Under the pieces are notes generated by a model. The model did no database searches and was not told the origin of the DNA. It saw only the letters and a list, made by a program, of their open reading frames with translations. Shown piece by piece: positions 21,720 to 26,928 of a stretch of 27,558 nucleotides of DNA. Location of the stretch: positions 1 to 27,558 of IMG/VR virus record IMGVR_UViG_3300037502_003250; one strand, given 5' to 3'. Every line of letters starts with the position of its first letter. Within the stretch, counting starts at the first letter, position 1. Source of the DNA: a virus. The position numbers were made by a program, and so were the translations under genes.

Positions 21720-22529
21720 CTAGAATAGATACGGATCAGGCCAACCGTCGCGGTGCCAGTTGCCGGACTTCGTGCGCTCGATGATTTCTTCGATCGCATC
21801 CTGCAGCACGATAGCCGCAGCCGCCAGCGTCTCACCCCTCGGTTGGAACACTTCGCATCGGTACGGTTCCGATGACTCTACGACGATAAAGTGTACCTCA
21901 GGTAGCTCCCCGTTGCGAATCGACTCGACTAAAAGCTGGTACATCACAGCCTGAACGTCCCACTTGTGATCCAATGGACGGTAGCCTACAGTCCGGTCGT
22001 CGAAGTCCGAAATCGTTTTCAAATCAATTACGCACTTATCCAACCAGTCGATTCTCCCCCGTACCGGCTGGTAGGATCCATCCAGTAGTGGGGCCTCGGC
22101 TGTGATCGTAAGCTCGGTCAGAGCTTCGGCCCTGTTCTCAAGCAGTTTCCTGGCTATCGGGTTTCCCGCAATCGCCTCCCGAATGTAGTTGAGCCCCTGA
22201 ACCTGATCCGACTTCAGAAGCACTACACCCTGATTCTCTGCCTTAAACTGATCCCACGCAGCCCCGCGCCGTGCCCCGTTGCTTGATAGGGCCTCTTTGG
22301 GAATCTCTTTCCAGGTCTGCTCCCAGATAGCTAGCAACTGATCCTCGTGAACCGCTGTACCGAAATCCATAGCCGAAGTAGCTTTTCGCTTACGTCCCTT
22401 GATGTACTCCCACTCAAAATGCTCTGGGCTTTTCAGCAGCGTCTTGACCATAGACGCGCTAATTTCTGGCCGAGAATGATAGCTGTCGATCGCCTCCCCG
22501 ATATGAACCTGACCGTTTCTGAATCCCAT
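21720..22529 (-). CDS. PD-(D/E)XK recombination nuclease (269 aa)
   Basis: The start at 22529 makes a TAATG junction with the previous gene. Residues 51-66 (TSAMDFGTAVHEDQLL) resemble the helix before the active site in RecB/RecE-type nucleases, and the catalytic core is GRIDWLDKCVIDLKT (Asp161, Asp169, Lys171), followed by the QAVMYQLLV helix (193-201). The order G-H ... D-x-x-x-DxK ... QxxxY is that of phage exonuclease partners of ERF or RecT. It would resect DNA ends for the annealase at 19128. Confidence 0.85.
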   Translation of the reverse strand: MGFRNGQVHIGEAIDSYHSRPEISASMVKTLLKSPEHFEWEYIKGRKRKATSAMDFGTAVHEDQLLAIWEQTWKEIPKEALSSNGARRGAAWDQFKAENQGVVLLKSDQVQGLNYIREAIAGNPIARKLLENRAEALTELTITAEAPLLDGSYQPVRGRIDWLDKCVIDLKTISDFDDRTVGYRPLDHKWDVQAVMYQLLVESIRNGELPEVHFIVVESSEPYRCEVFQPRGETLAAAAIVLQDAIEEIIERTKSGNWHRDGWPDPYLF

Positions 22530-22768
22530 TACAAGTCCCTGTTCCCTTTTAACCAAGAAACCTCTGCGTCAATAGCCTGCGAGCGTGTTGAGAACGGCCC
22601 CAACTTTGGACCACCCACCGGCCCCATATCTGCGTGCCAACCGTCCGCTTCTGGCTCAACATGCGATGCCCTACGAATGGCAACGTTGCCACACTCGCGC
22701 AGCAAGTCGTTTCCCTCGTCGCTGTAAATCGCCTGGATATCTGATCCAATCAGTAACGTTATTTCCAT
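22529..22768 (-). CDS. Small phage protein with RASHVEP and GPFSTRSQA motifs (79 aa)
   Basis: The start at 22768 has GGAGG eight bases upstream. The N-terminus (MEITLLIGSDIQAIYSDE) is followed by GNVAIRRASHVEPEADGWHADM and PVGGPKLGPFSTRSQAIDAEVSWL. I recall the RASHVEP...GPVGGPxLGPFxTRSxA block from many phages, with no known activity. An exact family-1 palindrome is in frame in the block as GNVA. Confidence 0.8.
   Translation of the reverse strand: MEITLLIGSDIQAIYSDEGNDLLRECGNVAIRRASHVEPEADGWHADMGPVGGPKLGPFSTRSQAIDAEVSWLKGNRDL
22678..22691 (-). repeat. Family-1 palindrome inside the 79-aa gene
   Basis: Exact copy in the GNVA frame, next to the conserved RASHVEP block. Confidence 0.9.
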
Positions 22769-22786
22769 AGGACTATCCTCCGAACT

Positions 22787-22800
22787 ATCAATGCCACCGC
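22787..22800 (-). promoter_or_regulatory. Family-3 motif GGTGGCATTG upstream of the 79-aa gene
   Basis: GGTGGCATTGATAG ends about 20 bases before the start, with GGAGG between, the same arrangement as at 8360. Confidence 0.4.
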
Positions 22801-22806
22801 ACGCAC

Positions 22807-23109
22807 TTAGAACCATGCAGGGTCGAATAAATCCCCGACAATTTCCGAAAGCGTGTTCATAACAACGGCATCCTGCCGCAAGTCAAAATTGATTTCCGCG
22901 AACGCTCTGGCCTGATCAATCTCGAAAACGTAGGTCCGCTCGTCGATCTTTGCGATCTGCGATTCCCAACCTGGAAAGTTAACCGCGAGGATCTTTCGCA
23001 GCTTCCCGACCGGTGCTGTCGTATTCAGCGCTGCGACCAGCGTTAGCCTGCTCCCTGTGGATCGGCTAAGCTCGATCATAAAAAACCTCGGCCTCCAAGC
23101 GGTGGTCAT
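22807..23109 (-). CDS. Unrecognised protein (100 aa)
   Basis: Its start overlaps the DUF2997 stop by four bases. It has strands and helices in alternation (FMIELSRSTGSRLTLVAALN, IAKIDERTYVFEID) and an acidic end. No family is recognised. Cotranslation with the DUF2997 gene suggests a shared role. Confidence 0.65.
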   Translation of the reverse strand: MTTAWRPRFFMIELSRSTGSRLTLVAALNTTAPVGKLRKILAVNFPGWESQIAKIDERTYVFEIDQARAFAEINFDLRQDAVVMNTLSEIVGDLFDPAWF

Positions 23110-23288
23110 CGCTTGGCCTGCCGTTCCTGGCCCTGCCGGAAGTACTCCGGCTTCTGCTCGTCGGCTGTGACCTGACCCAACGCTTGCTCGATTCCCTTTG
23201 TAAGATCCGAACAGCCTTTGCCCGAGCAGCCGTTGACCTCGACCTTCACCTGTCCGGCCTTGTCAATCGTTACCTCAATTGTTTCCAT
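23106..23288 (-). CDS. DUF2997 protein (60 aa)
   Basis: It reads METIEVTIDKAGQVKVEVNGCSGKGCSDLTKGIEQALGQVT, matching the DUF2997 pattern (xxIEVxIxxxGxVKxExxGxxGxxCxxxTxxLExALG). In cyanobacteria and plastids DUF2997 genes sit beside DUF1257 (Ycf35). Here DUF1257 is two genes upstream. The Cys pair (residues 21 and 26) may bind metal. Function is unknown. Confidence 0.85.
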   Translation of the reverse strand: METIEVTIDKAGQVKVEVNGCSGKGCSDLTKGIEQALGQVTADEQKPEYFRQGQERQAKR

Positions 23289-23541
23289 CGTATTGCCAGA
23301 ATTCTTTCTGTTCCCAAGAGTAATTGTGAATCGAATCTTGATCGGCGTGATCGTTAAACAGCGTGCAATTGTGGCCCTGATGCTCGACCATGAAGCCGAT
23401 CAGTAAAGCCGAGTTGTATTCCTTCAGGTCCTTACCAGCCTGTTTGGCTTCGGCGATGTTTTGTGGATACACCGGACCGAGCTTGTCCAAATCCCTGAGA
23501 ACCTTGCAATCTCGACAGCCGATGTAGTAATTGACGCCCAT
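23275..23541 (-). CDS. Small CxxC protein (88 aa)
   Basis: The start at 23541 has GAGGTAGGGC just upstream. It begins VNYYIGCRDCKVLRDL, where CxxC could bind a metal with the later HQGHNC. The rest is mixed (LKEYNSALLIGFMVEHQGHN, NYSWEQKEFW). It lies between DUF1257 and DUF2997, so it is probably part of the same module. Not recognised. Confidence 0.65.
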   Translation of the reverse strand: MGVNYYIGCRDCKVLRDLDKLGPVYPQNIAEAKQAGKDLKEYNSALLIGFMVEHQGHNCTLFNDHADQDSIHNYSWEQKEFWQYDGNN

Positions 23542-23545
23542 CGCC

Positions 23546-23971
23546 CTACCTCGAAAGTGTGAGCTTGACTCGACCATCCTTAAGCAACTGTTCCTTGACC
23601 GCGAAGCCCTGCTTCTTGGCCTGCTTGCGTGCGACCTCGATCGCATAGGCTTGCTGTAGCTTTCCGATGCCACGGATATCGTCCTCAAAGGCAATAGCAT
23701 CCTGCATCCCTGGCCCGGTATTCTGACCATACTTTTTGCCCCGATTGTGAGGATCAAAATCGATCTTCAAGCCGGTTGCTGTTTTATGCACCCCGACCTC
23801 AAACGCAAACTTGCTAGGATGCACTATCGCAGCATCGCATGGGCTTACCTGATCGTTGTACCATCGGAACTGCTTTTGATCCTGCTTTAGCTCGACCCCG
23901 CAACGCTGGCAGGCTTTTGCCAGTGCGTCTAGGTCCTTGAACTCTACCTCTACCGTAGCAATGTGACTCAC
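23546..23971 (-). CDS. DUF1257 (Ycf35-like) protein (141 aa)
   Basis: It begins MSHIATVEVEFKDLDALAKACQ, the DUF1257 pattern (MSHIxTxxxxIxDLDALxxAC), and goes on with GVELKQDQKQFRWY, CDAAIVHPSKFAFEVGVH and a C-terminal helix (LQQAYAIEVARKQAKKQGF). Length and order fit Ycf35, a plastid/cyanobacterial gene of uncertain function. It shares an operon with DUF2997 and a Ycf46-like ATPase, the same trio as in cyanobacteria. It follows a composite repeat. Confidence 0.88.
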   Translation of the reverse strand: MSHIATVEVEFKDLDALAKACQRCGVELKQDQKQFRWYNDQVSPCDAAIVHPSKFAFEVGVHKTATGLKIDFDPHNRGKKYGQNTGPGMQDAIAFEDDIRGIGKLQQAYAIEVARKQAKKQGFAVKEQLLKDGRVKLTLSR

Positions 23972-24000
23972 TTCCGAACCTCGCTTTCGTGTTTTCGCGC

Positions 24001-24060
24001 TGGCAACGTTGCCAGCAAATTAACCCCACCGATCAGAAAAAAGCACGATTGCTTTTATTC
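24001..24060 (-). repeat. Composite of family-1 and family-2 palindromes
   Basis: Exact family 1 (24001-24014), then family 2 (24034-24060). The TAA stop of the coiled-coil gene lies in the family-2 arm. Confidence 0.9.
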
Positions 24061-24960
24061 AAATTCGATTTCTCGCTCGGCTGCCTTGACGATGTGCTTG
24101 CTGACCGATTCCTTGAGGTTTGCGAAGGCCTGCTGCATTGTAGCTCGCTGGCCTGCATCCTTCTTGATCGCCTTGGTATCAAGCCCCACGGCCAACTGCT
24201 CGGCCTGCCTTACCAGGGCATCAAGCTCGGCATCATCGCTGACCGACAAGGCCCGGAACCGCTGGGCGAACTCTACGATGTTGTCCACGGCTCGCTGCTG
24301 AAGGATCCGCTTTTTCCCGTCCTCGGATTCCCCCTGCTCCAATCGTTCGGCAACGCTGTTGACCATGTCAGCAAACTCTTGCTGAAGCGCCTGCTCGGCC
24401 ACGTTTGCAGCCTGTTCGAACTTGATCCGGCACTTTTCGATTTCTCGCTCTAGGATTCCCTTGCCGAGTTGTTCTAGCTTCCTGTCCGGTTGAACCGAGG
24501 GATAGCTGATCGTCAGCCAAATCATCTGCCGAACGTCAATCCTGTAGTCGGCCTCGACGTATAGCTGAGCGAGCCTTCGCTGGGCGTCCTGCTTGACCGT
24601 TTCCCAAGCGTCATACAACGCTTGTTTTGCCTCTGCCAATTCTGTCTGGTAGCGATTGATCTGCTCGTTCATTCGCTCAATCTGATCGACCTTGATGAGC
24701 CTTACACCGTCCTCGTACTTAACCGTGTAGGCTTGCCAGTATGCTCTTGCGGCCCGGATGATGCCATAAACGGTTTTGACCTCCGGGATTTTTTTGTTCA
24801 AAATCTCCCGCCCCCCGCTGACCGACTTGGCATCGGACTCGAAGAATGAAGCGACCCGCGCTAGCTGTGAATCTGTCATCTTCTTGCGACTCGAAAAGCT
24901 CGTCACTTCCAGCTTGCACCCGCTCATTTCGTCGGCGAGTCTCTGTCCTAAATCCGGCAT
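24055..24960 (-). CDS. Coiled-coil protein next to the AAA ATPase (301 aa)
   Basis: The first 75 residues are mixed (VTSFSSRKKMTDSQLARVASFFESD, IIRAARAYWQAYTVKYEDGVRL). Residues 90-290 are a long helical, charged region with many Glu, Gln and Arg (MNEQINRYQTELAEAKQAL, QAANVAEQALQQEFADMV). No catalytic motif is seen. It starts just downstream of the AAA gene, so it may be a partner of it; DUF3150 is a loose possibility. The stop is inside a family-2 repeat. Confidence 0.75.
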   Translation of the reverse strand: MPDLGQRLADEMSGCKLEVTSFSSRKKMTDSQLARVASFFESDAKSVSGGREILNKKIPEVKTVYGIIRAARAYWQAYTVKYEDGVRLIKVDQIERMNEQINRYQTELAEAKQALYDAWETVKQDAQRRLAQLYVEADYRIDVRQMIWLTISYPSVQPDRKLEQLGKGILEREIEKCRIKFEQAANVAEQALQQEFADMVNSVAERLEQGESEDGKKRILQQRAVDNIVEFAQRFRALSVSDDAELDALVRQAEQLAVGLDTKAIKKDAGQRATMQQAFANLKESVSKHIVKAAEREIEFE

Positions 24961-24973
24961 GTTTCAAACCCTG

Positions 24974-25000
24974 TAGAAAAAAGTAATGTTGCGTTTATCC
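24974..25000 (-). repeat. Family-2 palindrome between the AAA and coiled-coil genes
   Basis: A6, TAATGTTGCG core and T-rich arm, about 15 bases before the coiled-coil start. Confidence 0.7.
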
Positions 25001-25005
25001 AATAG

Positions 25006-25020
25006 AACAATGCCGCCATC
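25006..25020 (-). promoter_or_regulatory. Family-3 motif GGCGGCATTG upstream of the coiled-coil gene
   Basis: GGCGGCATTGTTCTAT, about 48 bases before the start. The TTCTAT matches the copy at 8360. Confidence 0.4.
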
Positions 25021-25036
25021 TGTGTCTTGGCACCAA

Positions 25037-26494
25037 CTATTCTAGCTCCCGTCCGCTATTTTCTTTGTGGCGTCGGTATGGCCCCGGAGCGCTGGCCGAA
25101 AGGAATCGACCCTCTGCCCCTTGGCGTAGCCTTGCAATCGCCTCGGGTGCTTGCTTGGCGACCGGTACGATGTACTCGCTGGCATCCCGCAAGGTGATCC
25201 CTAGCGAGTCTGCAATCTCGCAGCACGATTCGATTTCTGCACCGGTCCACTCTAGGGCAGTCAGTTCCTTGATCGCCTGGGTATCAGTGTGCCCAAACTT
25301 CTTTGCATACAAGGCCCAAATCGCCTTGCGTTCCGCTGCGTCCGGAAGATCGAAGAACCACGTCCCGAGCTTGAAACGTCGCTTTAGTTCAGGCGGTAGA
25401 TCGGTCAGGCTGTTGCACGTTGCAATCCAGAGCGTTTCCCCACCGCTGATCGCATCGATCACCTTTAGCGCCTCGCGTATCTGACCTTCGGACTGACCGA
25501 CCAAGGATCCTTTTGTCCCGCCAAGGTCAAGCTGAATCGTCGGTATCCCGCCCTCGGATCCTGCGGCCTTAGCGACCGCTGACTTCGCAGCCCCAGGAGG
25601 CCCTACGAGGATCGTTCCCGTGGCTCGATGATCCTGCATCCAGGATAACAACTGGCCTAGCTGATCCTGGGAAACCCCGCTGGTATCGGATCCCGCAGCC
25701 CCGAGCGACTTTTCGATTTCGTCCACGAATACGATCGCCTTCGGCTTCTGCTTGCCCTTCAGCACCCGTCGCATAAAGGTCTTGTACTGATCGCAACCGC
25801 CGATCTGATCGAACCCGCCCTTTTGCGTGACCACCCGGAGGCCCGGCGTTTGGTCGATCTTTTTGCGTTTAGACTCCCAAAGCTGATCTACGTCCAAGCC
25901 CTCTTTGCTCAGCGCGAGGCAGGCGAGATTCTCGGCACAAAAGGCCGTTACACCGATCGCAGCCGTAGCACCGCTGTCCAGGGTTTCATCATCGGCTTGC
26001 GTCTTGCCCCACTCGCAAACGTTCTGCACGATCCCTCGAAGCTCGTCGGCCCTAGGCAACGGATCATCGAACCGCACTACGTCGTGGATCAATTCCGCTG
26101 GCAACGTTGCCACGCCCAGGAGCACCAATGTTTTCTTGCTGGCCTTGAATTCGTCGCGGAGATTCCACACGGCTTGCACCGCGCGAGGGTCGTCCATGAA
26201 TAGGTGGGCGTTGCAAACCACAACTATCTGCCTGCGTGATAGCTCTTTCAGGTCAGACAGGAAGTTCACCATCGACCCCGAATAGTCCTGCTGCGGAAGG
26301 GCCGAAATCCCCTCGACTGCCTTCGTATCCGACAGTTCGGAAAACGCACCCCTGATCACATCCCACACGATCACGCCAACCGGATCCTCGATCCCGCTTA
26401 CCTGCTCTCGGATCGTCCGGATCGTCGCTGCCGGGTCGCCGGTCGTTACCGCCACTAGAGGAACACCAGCCCTAAAAGCCTTGGAAATCTGCAT
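25037..26494 (-). CDS. Ycf46-like AAA ATPase with permuted Walker order (485 aa)
   Basis: The N-terminal 150 residues follow the Ycf46 layout (IVVVCNAHLFM, LRDEFKASKKTLVLLG, LPAELIHDVVRFDDPLP). The ATPase half is unusual. The Walker B-like AIVFVDEIEKSLG (253-265) and the GVSQDQLGQLLSWMQ block come before the Walker A-like VGPPGAAKSAVAKA (297-310). Then LWIATCNSLTDLPPELKRRF gives sensor 1 and the arginine finger. The usual order is A then B. Walker A also has Ala in place of the last Gly (GAAKS). An in-frame family-1 repeat encodes VATLPAEL in a conserved strand. Confidence 0.85.
   Translation of the reverse strand: MQISKAFRAGVPLVAVTTGDPAATIRTIREQVSGIEDPVGVIVWDVIRGAFSELSDTKAVEGISALPQQDYSGSMVNFLSDLKELSRRQIVVVCNAHLFMDDPRAVQAVWNLRDEFKASKKTLVLLGVATLPAELIHDVVRFDDPLPRADELRGIVQNVCEWGKTQADDETLDSGATAAIGVTAFCAENLACLALSKEGLDVDQLWESKRKKIDQTPGLRVVTQKGGFDQIGGCDQYKTFMRRVLKGKQKPKAIVFVDEIEKSLGAAGSDTSGVSQDQLGQLLSWMQDHRATGTILVGPPGAAKSAVAKAAGSEGGIPTIQLDLGGTKGSLVGQSEGQIREALKVIDAISGGETLWIATCNSLTDLPPELKRRFKLGTWFFDLPDAAERKAIWALYAKKFGHTDTQAIKELTALEWTGAEIESCCEIADSLGITLRDASEYIVPVAKQAPEAIARLRQGAEGRFLSASAPGPYRRHKENSGRELE
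26099..26112 (-). repeat. Family-1 palindrome inside the AAA ATPase gene
   Basis: Exact copy, in the VATLP frame, where Ycf46-type proteins normally have a conserved LPxEL. Confidence 0.9.
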
Positions 26495-26583: not shown

Positions 26584-26698
26584 AATCGTCAAAAAAACCT
26601 GCGACCGAGGCCAAAAGATAGGCACCGATTACAACTCCGCACACACACAGGACGCCACCGATCTCGCGTCCGTCAAGATACTCGTTGATCCAGTTCAC
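26582..26698 (-). CDS. Membrane mini-protein (38 aa)
   Basis: The GTG start overlaps the CsrA stop as GTGA and has GGGGG upstream. A polar N-terminus (NWINEYLDGREIGG) is followed by one hydrophobic helix of about 20 residues (VLCVCGVVIGAYLLASVAG) with two Cys, and an acidic end. It is one of three very small membrane genes in this window. Its stop abuts a family-2 repeat. Role unknown. Confidence 0.6.
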   Translation of the reverse strand: MNWINEYLDGREIGGVLCVCGVVIGAYLLASVAGFFDD

Positions 26699-26928
26699 TT
26701 GCCACCCCCGAGCGAAAGAGCCTTGGGGAACCGCGAAGCAAATCGCGCAAAACAGCTTGCTCGAAACTTGCGTTGCTCAGGGGTCAACAGTTCATCCCGA
26801 GCTATCTCTACCTCAGGGGGTGCGATGATTTCAATCTTCGCCTTGCCTGGGCCTGACGATAGGACCCGAACCAAAACCCCGCCGATCCATACCGCCTCGT
26901 TCGGCTTGCGTTTGATTACCAGGCTCAT
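26695..26928 (-). CDS. csrA: CsrA-like RNA-binding regulator (77 aa)
   Basis: It begins MSLVIKRKPNEAVWIGGVLVRVL and continues KAKIEIIAPPEVEIARDEL, matching CsrA (MLILTRRVGETLxIGDxVxVxVLxxxGxxVRIGIxAPxxVxVxRxEI) in order. The family binds GGA-containing leaders of mRNAs and blocks or promotes translation. Residues 50-77 are an extension rich in Arg, Phe and Gly. It overlaps the upstream gene by four bases. In a phage it could regulate host or phage messages. Confidence 0.9.
   Translation of the reverse strand: MSLVIKRKPNEAVWIGGVLVRVLSSGPGKAKIEIIAPPEVEIARDELLTPEQRKFRASCFARFASRFPKALSLGGGK

Follow-up and report, generated by a model that had tools for sequence, protein, structure and literature searches.

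An AAA+ ATPase with exchanged Walker B and Walker A blocks in phages and bacteria, and its DUF3150, DUF1257 and DUF2997 neighbors

AAA+ ATPases occur in every branch of life, and the sequence in which their core motifs follow one another counts as a defining feature. Here we describe members in which that order is changed, starting from a 27,558-base virus record (IMG/VR IMGVR_UViG_3300037502_003250), the whole of which was analyzed and is called the window below. Between positions 23106 and 26494, five consecutive open reading frames (ORFs) on the minus strand encode a DUF2997 protein, a small CxxC protein, a DUF1257 protein, a helical protein and a double-AAA ATPase, in the order and at the place that an earlier sequence-only reading of this DNA had given. 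What that reading missed is that, in the catalytic AAA domain of the ATPase, the Walker B block lies ahead of the Walker A block.

The ATPase (485 aa; 25037..26494, minus strand) consists of a degenerate N-terminal AAA domain, in which no Walker A or Walker B motif could be read in residues 1–240, and a catalytic C-terminal AAA domain with the swapped blocks. In the latter, the Walker B segment (residues 253–262, ending DEIEK) comes first and the Walker A motif GPPGAAKS (298–305) later, so that the classical AAA+ order of Walker A, Walker B and sensor 1 is not followed. The protein is a double-AAA ATPase, putatively of the Ycf46 type, a name that none of the search results carried, no named Ycf46 sequence having been among those compared.

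A profile built from 44 ordinary-order relatives provides the clearest view of the exchange. The window ATPase matches it in four pieces that run, in profile numbering, 22–260, 337–378, 279–336 and 381–514. The first covers residues 2–243 (E 3.4e-35). The second, residues 252–291 (25622..25741, minus strand; E 2.7e-13), is the moved block, with the Walker B strand and the helices that follow it; the third, residues 293–350 (25445..25618, minus strand; E 1e-17), is the Walker A block, with invariant G298, G301 and K304. The fourth, residues 355–475 (25070..25432, minus strand; E 5.4e-24), holds sensor 1 (N361), R373 and the lid, and is again collinear with the ordinary relatives. The segments together span profile positions 22–514, which makes the protein homologous to ordinary double-AAA members over its full length, and the exchange concerns neighboring blocks, one of about 42 residues and the other of about 58. 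Two ordinary proteins, L018 and L139, both of them among the 44 that built the profile, match it as one collinear piece; none of 200 shuffled versions of the window ATPase matches it at all. The Pfam AAA model matches the window ATPase in two separate stretches (57.9 bits).

To see how widespread this arrangement is, we collected 169 loci with an ATPase ORF from scans of viral and of genome contigs and from three named phage regions; the best 80 loci per scan were kept and several loci are near-duplicates, so that the proportions describe this sample rather than nature and the counts are not independent events. By motif, 124 ATPases are permuted, 44 are ordinary and one is truncated; strict motif expressions decided all but L082 and L127, which were classed as permuted by reading the sequence. 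Permuted proteins make up 82 of 86 in viral contigs, 41 of 80 in genome contigs and one of the three in named records, where the isolated phage Tunturi_3, whose host is Tunturiibacter psychrotolerans, is permuted and Catdawg and Javan368 are ordinary (the Tunturi phages are described in PMC11924767, consulted in part). Outside phages, the contigs with a permuted ATPase are labeled Bryobacterales and other Acidobacteria, Planctomycetaceae, Armatimonadetes/Chthonomonas, Nitrospirales, Deltaproteobacteria and Myxococcales. Identity to the window ATPase is 35–83% for permuted and 22–29% for ordinary proteins.

The profile test agreed with the motif classes throughout. With the truncated locus left out and a protein from a Manganitrophus plasmid added, all 124 permuted proteins were swapped and all 45 others collinear, although 44 of those 45 had also built the profile. 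In every permuted protein the two blocks appear as separate matches, with median profile limits of 337–378 for the one that comes first and 278–336.5 for the other, and the junction between them is near-seamless, mostly −1 to 3 residues. That the swapped order is an artefact of assembly or reading frame is refuted by its recurrence at 124 loci on many separate contigs, including that of an isolated phage; we found nothing in support of such an error and give it practically no credence.

The permuted ATPase retains the Walker A, Walker B (DE), sensor 1 and arginine residues of classical AAA+ proteins: D258, E259, G298, G301, K304, G333, N361, R373 and F374 do not vary across the 83 permuted proteins that were aligned. 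AlphaFold2 models the window ATPase with a mean predicted local distance difference test score (pLDDT) of 91.8 and a predicted template modeling score (pTM) of 0.82, and places a strand at 253–257 in the Walker B block, then helices, then a strand at 292–297 that leads into the P-loop helix. The whole model aligns best to p97/Cdc48 (8ub4_A, Z 18.0, 393 residues aligned, 5.1 Å), a match that spans both AAA domains, and the second domain aligns to Vps4 and p97 D2 (Vps4 chains 6bmf_B, Z 17.0, 214 residues, 3.1 Å, and 4d82_B, Z 16.2, 204 residues, 2.5 Å). From the confidence of the model, its secondary structure and the invariant residues, we infer where the moved strand would sit relative to the P-loop. 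With its catalytic residues kept and a confidently predicted fold, the permuted ATPase looks functional. It might instead be a catalytically dead scaffold, as the motifs that appear degenerate by eye in two of the 124 proteins (Walker B in L082, Walker A in L127) could suggest; the invariance of the Walker A lysine, the Walker B DE pair, the sensor asparagine and the arginine in all 83 aligned members makes this very improbable.

For the origin of the swapped lineage, trees were built on the parts that remain collinear, the N-terminal domain and the C-terminal segment. In a FastTree of 119 permuted and 45 ordinary proteins, all permuted members separate from all ordinary ones (support 0.59). 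When iqtree was applied to a smaller selection of 60 proteins (24 permuted, 36 ordinary), the permuted clade has an ultrafast bootstrap (UFBoot) value of 75, rising to 100 when L017 is included and again 100 when L139, L143 and the Manganitrophus protein join. Of these ordinary relatives, among which the permuted clade nests, L139 and L143 have DUF3150, DUF1257 and DUF2997 genes nearby, and L017 has a DUF3150-like and a DUF2997 gene; because they carry the module genes, the gene set seems to predate the swap. The simplest history is a single exchange in a lineage that already traveled with DUF3150, DUF1257 and DUF2997, kept since then across phages and bacteria.

The helical protein encoded next to the ATPase (301 aa; 24055..24960, minus strand) had been described only as a coiled-coil protein; its family, overlooked at the time, can now be named. 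It is a divergent DUF3150 protein. The Pfam DUF3150 model (PF11348) matches 34 of the 81 members of its family, and in hhalign the family profile matches annotated DUF3150 proteins from two plasmids, the Manganitrophus plasmid (probability 100, E 2.5e-48) and one of Cupriavidus (E 5.3e-23). The AlphaFold2 model (pLDDT 94.0) has a DUF3150 protein as its top viral fold match in BFVD (E 5.3e-15). The window protein alone has no match to PF11348 at E up to 0.1 or up to 1, and tblastn with it found nothing in the named phages, yet the profile recovers a relative in Tunturi_3; single-sequence searches are therefore too weak for this family. The gene next to the Catdawg ATPase reaches an hhalign probability of only 8.5 against DUF3150; in the related phage Dylan, the protein gives a weak fold match (E 0.012). 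Foldseek found no match to the model in the PDB at E 0.001. The helical-bundle matches from VIA (best Z 10.1, 101 residues, 2.9 Å) were not taken as kinship, and weak matches to capsid, coat and NACHT proteins, below cut-off, were set aside.

The two smaller partners were assigned through Pfam, which largely bears out their earlier placement. The DUF2997 protein (60 aa; 23106..23288, minus strand), with its conserved G..G.GC, matches the whole of PF11211 (model positions 1–47 of 47; 64 bits, cut-off 24.1), and its cysteine is conserved in 91% of the family sequences. The DUF1257 (Ycf35-like) protein (141 aa; 23546..23971, minus strand) also exceeds the cut-off for its family, PF06868 (25.6 bits, cut-off 22.2), over part of the model only: positions 66–102 of 103, the C-terminal third. 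Sequence searches retrieved no solved chain for any of DUF1257, DUF3150 and DUF2997, the DUF1257 matches being at E 0.25 or weaker. Some phage loci hold a second, short type of DUF1257-like protein (L035:7995-8336, L051:7516-7839 and similar), many of which start MPC and are without the middle of the family.

ORF profile searches show that these partner genes recur beside the ATPase across related loci, which supports the earlier reading insofar as the gene set is conserved; it is present in many phages. Where at least 3 kb of sequence follows a permuted ATPase (107 loci), a DUF3150-like gene is present in 103, a DUF1257 gene in 95 and a DUF2997 gene in 78, with all three in 77; in 39 ordinary loci the corresponding counts are 6, 11, 12 and 5. 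Every partner match in the permuted loci lies on the ATPase strand, and a control with reversed ORFs gave no profile matches, so that recovery of the partners exceeds chance. The constant partner of the ATPase is DUF3150, ahead of DUF1257 and DUF2997. In the permuted loci other than L021, the commonest order is ATPase–DUF1257–DUF2997–DUF3150 (49 loci), followed by ATPase–DUF3150–DUF1257–DUF2997 (25), as in the window.

The small CxxC protein (87 aa; 23275..23538, minus strand, with its ATG at 23538), whose gene overlaps the DUF2997 start, had been counted as part of the module but is incidental to it: it gave two ORF matches in all and is found among the other loci only in L011. A small 95-aa protein (22529..22816, minus strand), without a match in Pfam or PHROG, belongs to a family that lies beside the module in 45 of the 107 permuted loci. 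Just upstream of the ATPase, the window encodes a CsrA-like regulator (26695-26928), a phage-borne gene with profile matches in 13 permuted loci. At 11245-12006 the window has a gene for a DUF5131 protein (PF07505, E 6e-69), which lies near the module in other phages too.

Since the module, besides many phages, also occurs on a plasmid and on contigs of bacterial genomes, its role is better described as mobile-element-related than as the phage-related one proposed earlier. On the Manganitrophus plasmid CP114559, the genes for an ATPase of ordinary order, DUF1257, DUF2997 and DUF3150 are contiguous. A JAB-domain gene (L171:5840-6265) lies two genes upstream of the plasmid ATPase. PRTRC ThiF, a marker of plasmids and elements, exceeded its cut-off in 10 of the 18 genomes in which it was sought versus none of 14 controls; in L100 its gene sits a short way upstream of that for the ATPase. 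In a sample of one phylum, 2 of 149 genomes have a permuted ATPase, one of them the query genome, a sparse distribution of the kind expected for an accessory element. Such sporadic occurrence, along with carriage by phages and plasmids, could also fit a conflict module, in which the AAA+ motor would serve counter-defense or exclusion between elements, and the ATPase weakly and partially matches the anti-phage IetA family. That match, however, is confined to the AAA core and reaches 25.4 bits where the cut-off is 510, while PADLOC gave no convincing match to a partner (one weak PtuB match to DUF1257, E 0.0064); we consider this explanation quite unlikely.

The reading we lean towards is that the module is a mobile-element AAA+ remodeling machine, its ATPase altered by a single block exchange, that acts on a presumed substrate. 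The exchanged-block ATPase would still fold as a parallel AAA+ sheet and hydrolyze ATP in a ring; DUF3150 would be its main partner or substrate receptor, DUF1257 and DUF2997 may be small adaptors, and the assembly would remodel a protein or protein–DNA complex in the recombination or replication program of the element. We favor a remodeling machine with DUF3150 as core partner because its named neighbors are mostly recombination and replication genes and because DUF3150 stands beside genes for ATP-binding and von Willebrand factor A (VWA) proteins on plasmids. The named phage neighbors are mostly concerned with DNA metabolism (RecE-like and other exonucleases, RecT, Rad52, helicase, primase, helicase loader and DNA methylases), and the window itself has ERF annealing protein, exonuclease, helicase and HNH genes, besides terminase and ParB-like genes. 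On a Cupriavidus plasmid, DUF3150 is flanked by an ATP-binding protein on one side and a VWA protein on the other, and on a Simplicispira plasmid it adjoins a VWA protein; the ATP-binding protein on these Burkholderiales plasmids appears MoxR-like, judged by reading one sequence. The 24 Pfam families identified in 133 of the 355 pooled phage neighbors, with one or two proteins per family, included no VWA domain, in a search that was not exhaustive. We see as evenly balanced the broader statement that the swapped AAA+ motor works, is spread over phages and several bacterial phyla, and centers a four-part machine for remodeling in recombination and replication, with the Walker B/pore-loop-2 region feeding the Walker A strand and pore-loop 1 running into sensor 1.

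Several points weigh against these proposals. The Foldseek and VIA matches alone do not prove that the moved strand occupies its usual position in the sheet; support for the permuted clade is modest in both trees; 29 of the 107 permuted loci yielded no DUF2997 gene, which may be dispensable or too divergent; and the recombination context may merely reflect the clustering of early phage genes. The module might also be a MoxR-type chaperone for an iron–sulfur or redox cofactor, in which DUF1257 and DUF2997 would handle a cofactor protein and the ATPase would drive its insertion or activation. The cyanobacterial duf2997–ycf35–fed7 cluster, which includes a ferredoxin (PMC4284462, consulted in part), fits this idea, as do the conserved cysteine of DUF2997 and a radical SAM gene resembling NrdG/PFL-activase (e.g. 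L112:10105-10677) that clusters close to the module at 19 permuted loci, of which 17 are bacterial genome loci. Neither ferredoxin nor radical SAM, however, was among the 24 Pfam families in the partial sample of phage neighbors or among the window proteins scanned, and the cofactor role strikes us as unlikely.

A 14-base palindrome, TGGCAACGTTGCCA, is present in 17 exact copies in the window (at 1530, 1807, 2043, 7272, 7374, 8506, 9074, 13312, 13526, 13989, 18226, 21261, 22678, 24001, 26099, 26524 and 27220) and in two with one mismatch, where 0.12 would be expected at up to two mismatches. In several cases it lies 17–38 bases upstream of a minus-strand start codon (30 bases for the ATPase and DUF1257, for instance), but it also occurs within genes. 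Of the 169 loci, L002 alone has it too, in 2 copies, and a few other viral contigs (L224, L245, L246 and L252) hold 3–6 copies.

A conserved natural block exchange tests how important strand connectivity is for motor coupling, and the ordinary-order sister proteins make it a ready-made natural experiment. Annotation that relies on motif order or on a single hit will misjudge the permuted ATPases, and DUF3150, DUF1257 and DUF2997 gain a common context for testing. AAA+ ATPases as a kind are known; the exchanged core is new as far as our searches reach. We found nothing relevant on permuted AAA+ or other ATPases among open-licence papers, in which absence is not proof, and no paper by title on phage copies of Ycf46, DUF1257 or DUF2997. 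Two papers retrieved for permutation with AAA+ or Walker motifs (PMC10853773, PMC7824862) concern, in the parts consulted, methylases rather than permuted AAA+ proteins.

Among known systems, the cyanobacterial cluster shares the adjacency of DUF2997 and DUF1257, with a ferredoxin in place of the ATPase and DUF3150; the linkage of DUF2997 and Ycf35 on which the sequence-only reading drew is found in print, but the published cluster, in the part of PMC4284462 consulted, is without Ycf46. Plasmid sets of Burkholderiales, one of them with PRTRC genes, resemble the module in having an AAA ATPase, MoxR-like as far as it could be read, next to DUF3150, but combine this other kind of ATPase with a VWA protein instead of our ATPase with DUF1257 and DUF2997. 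For a putative link to cobS of SXT/R391 elements, the search found no paper. p97/Cdc48, Vps4 and spastin share the fold of the window ATPase model (the whole chain with Cdc48 D1–D2, the second domain with Vps4 and p97 D2), but have the ordinary motif order at about 15–21% identity, and the window ATPase has Walker motifs only in its second domain. Circularly permuted GTPases such as RsgA/YjeQ are P-loop NTPases with a changed motif order, produced by circular permutation of a whole domain, whereas here two internal blocks of an AAA+ domain are exchanged. Closest are the ordinary double-AAA relatives (L018, L139, L143 and the protein of Manganitrophus CP114559), which share the four profile segments and, at several loci, the DUF3150, DUF1257 and DUF2997 neighbors as well; in them Walker A precedes Walker B, whereas in the permuted ATPases the blocks are exchanged.

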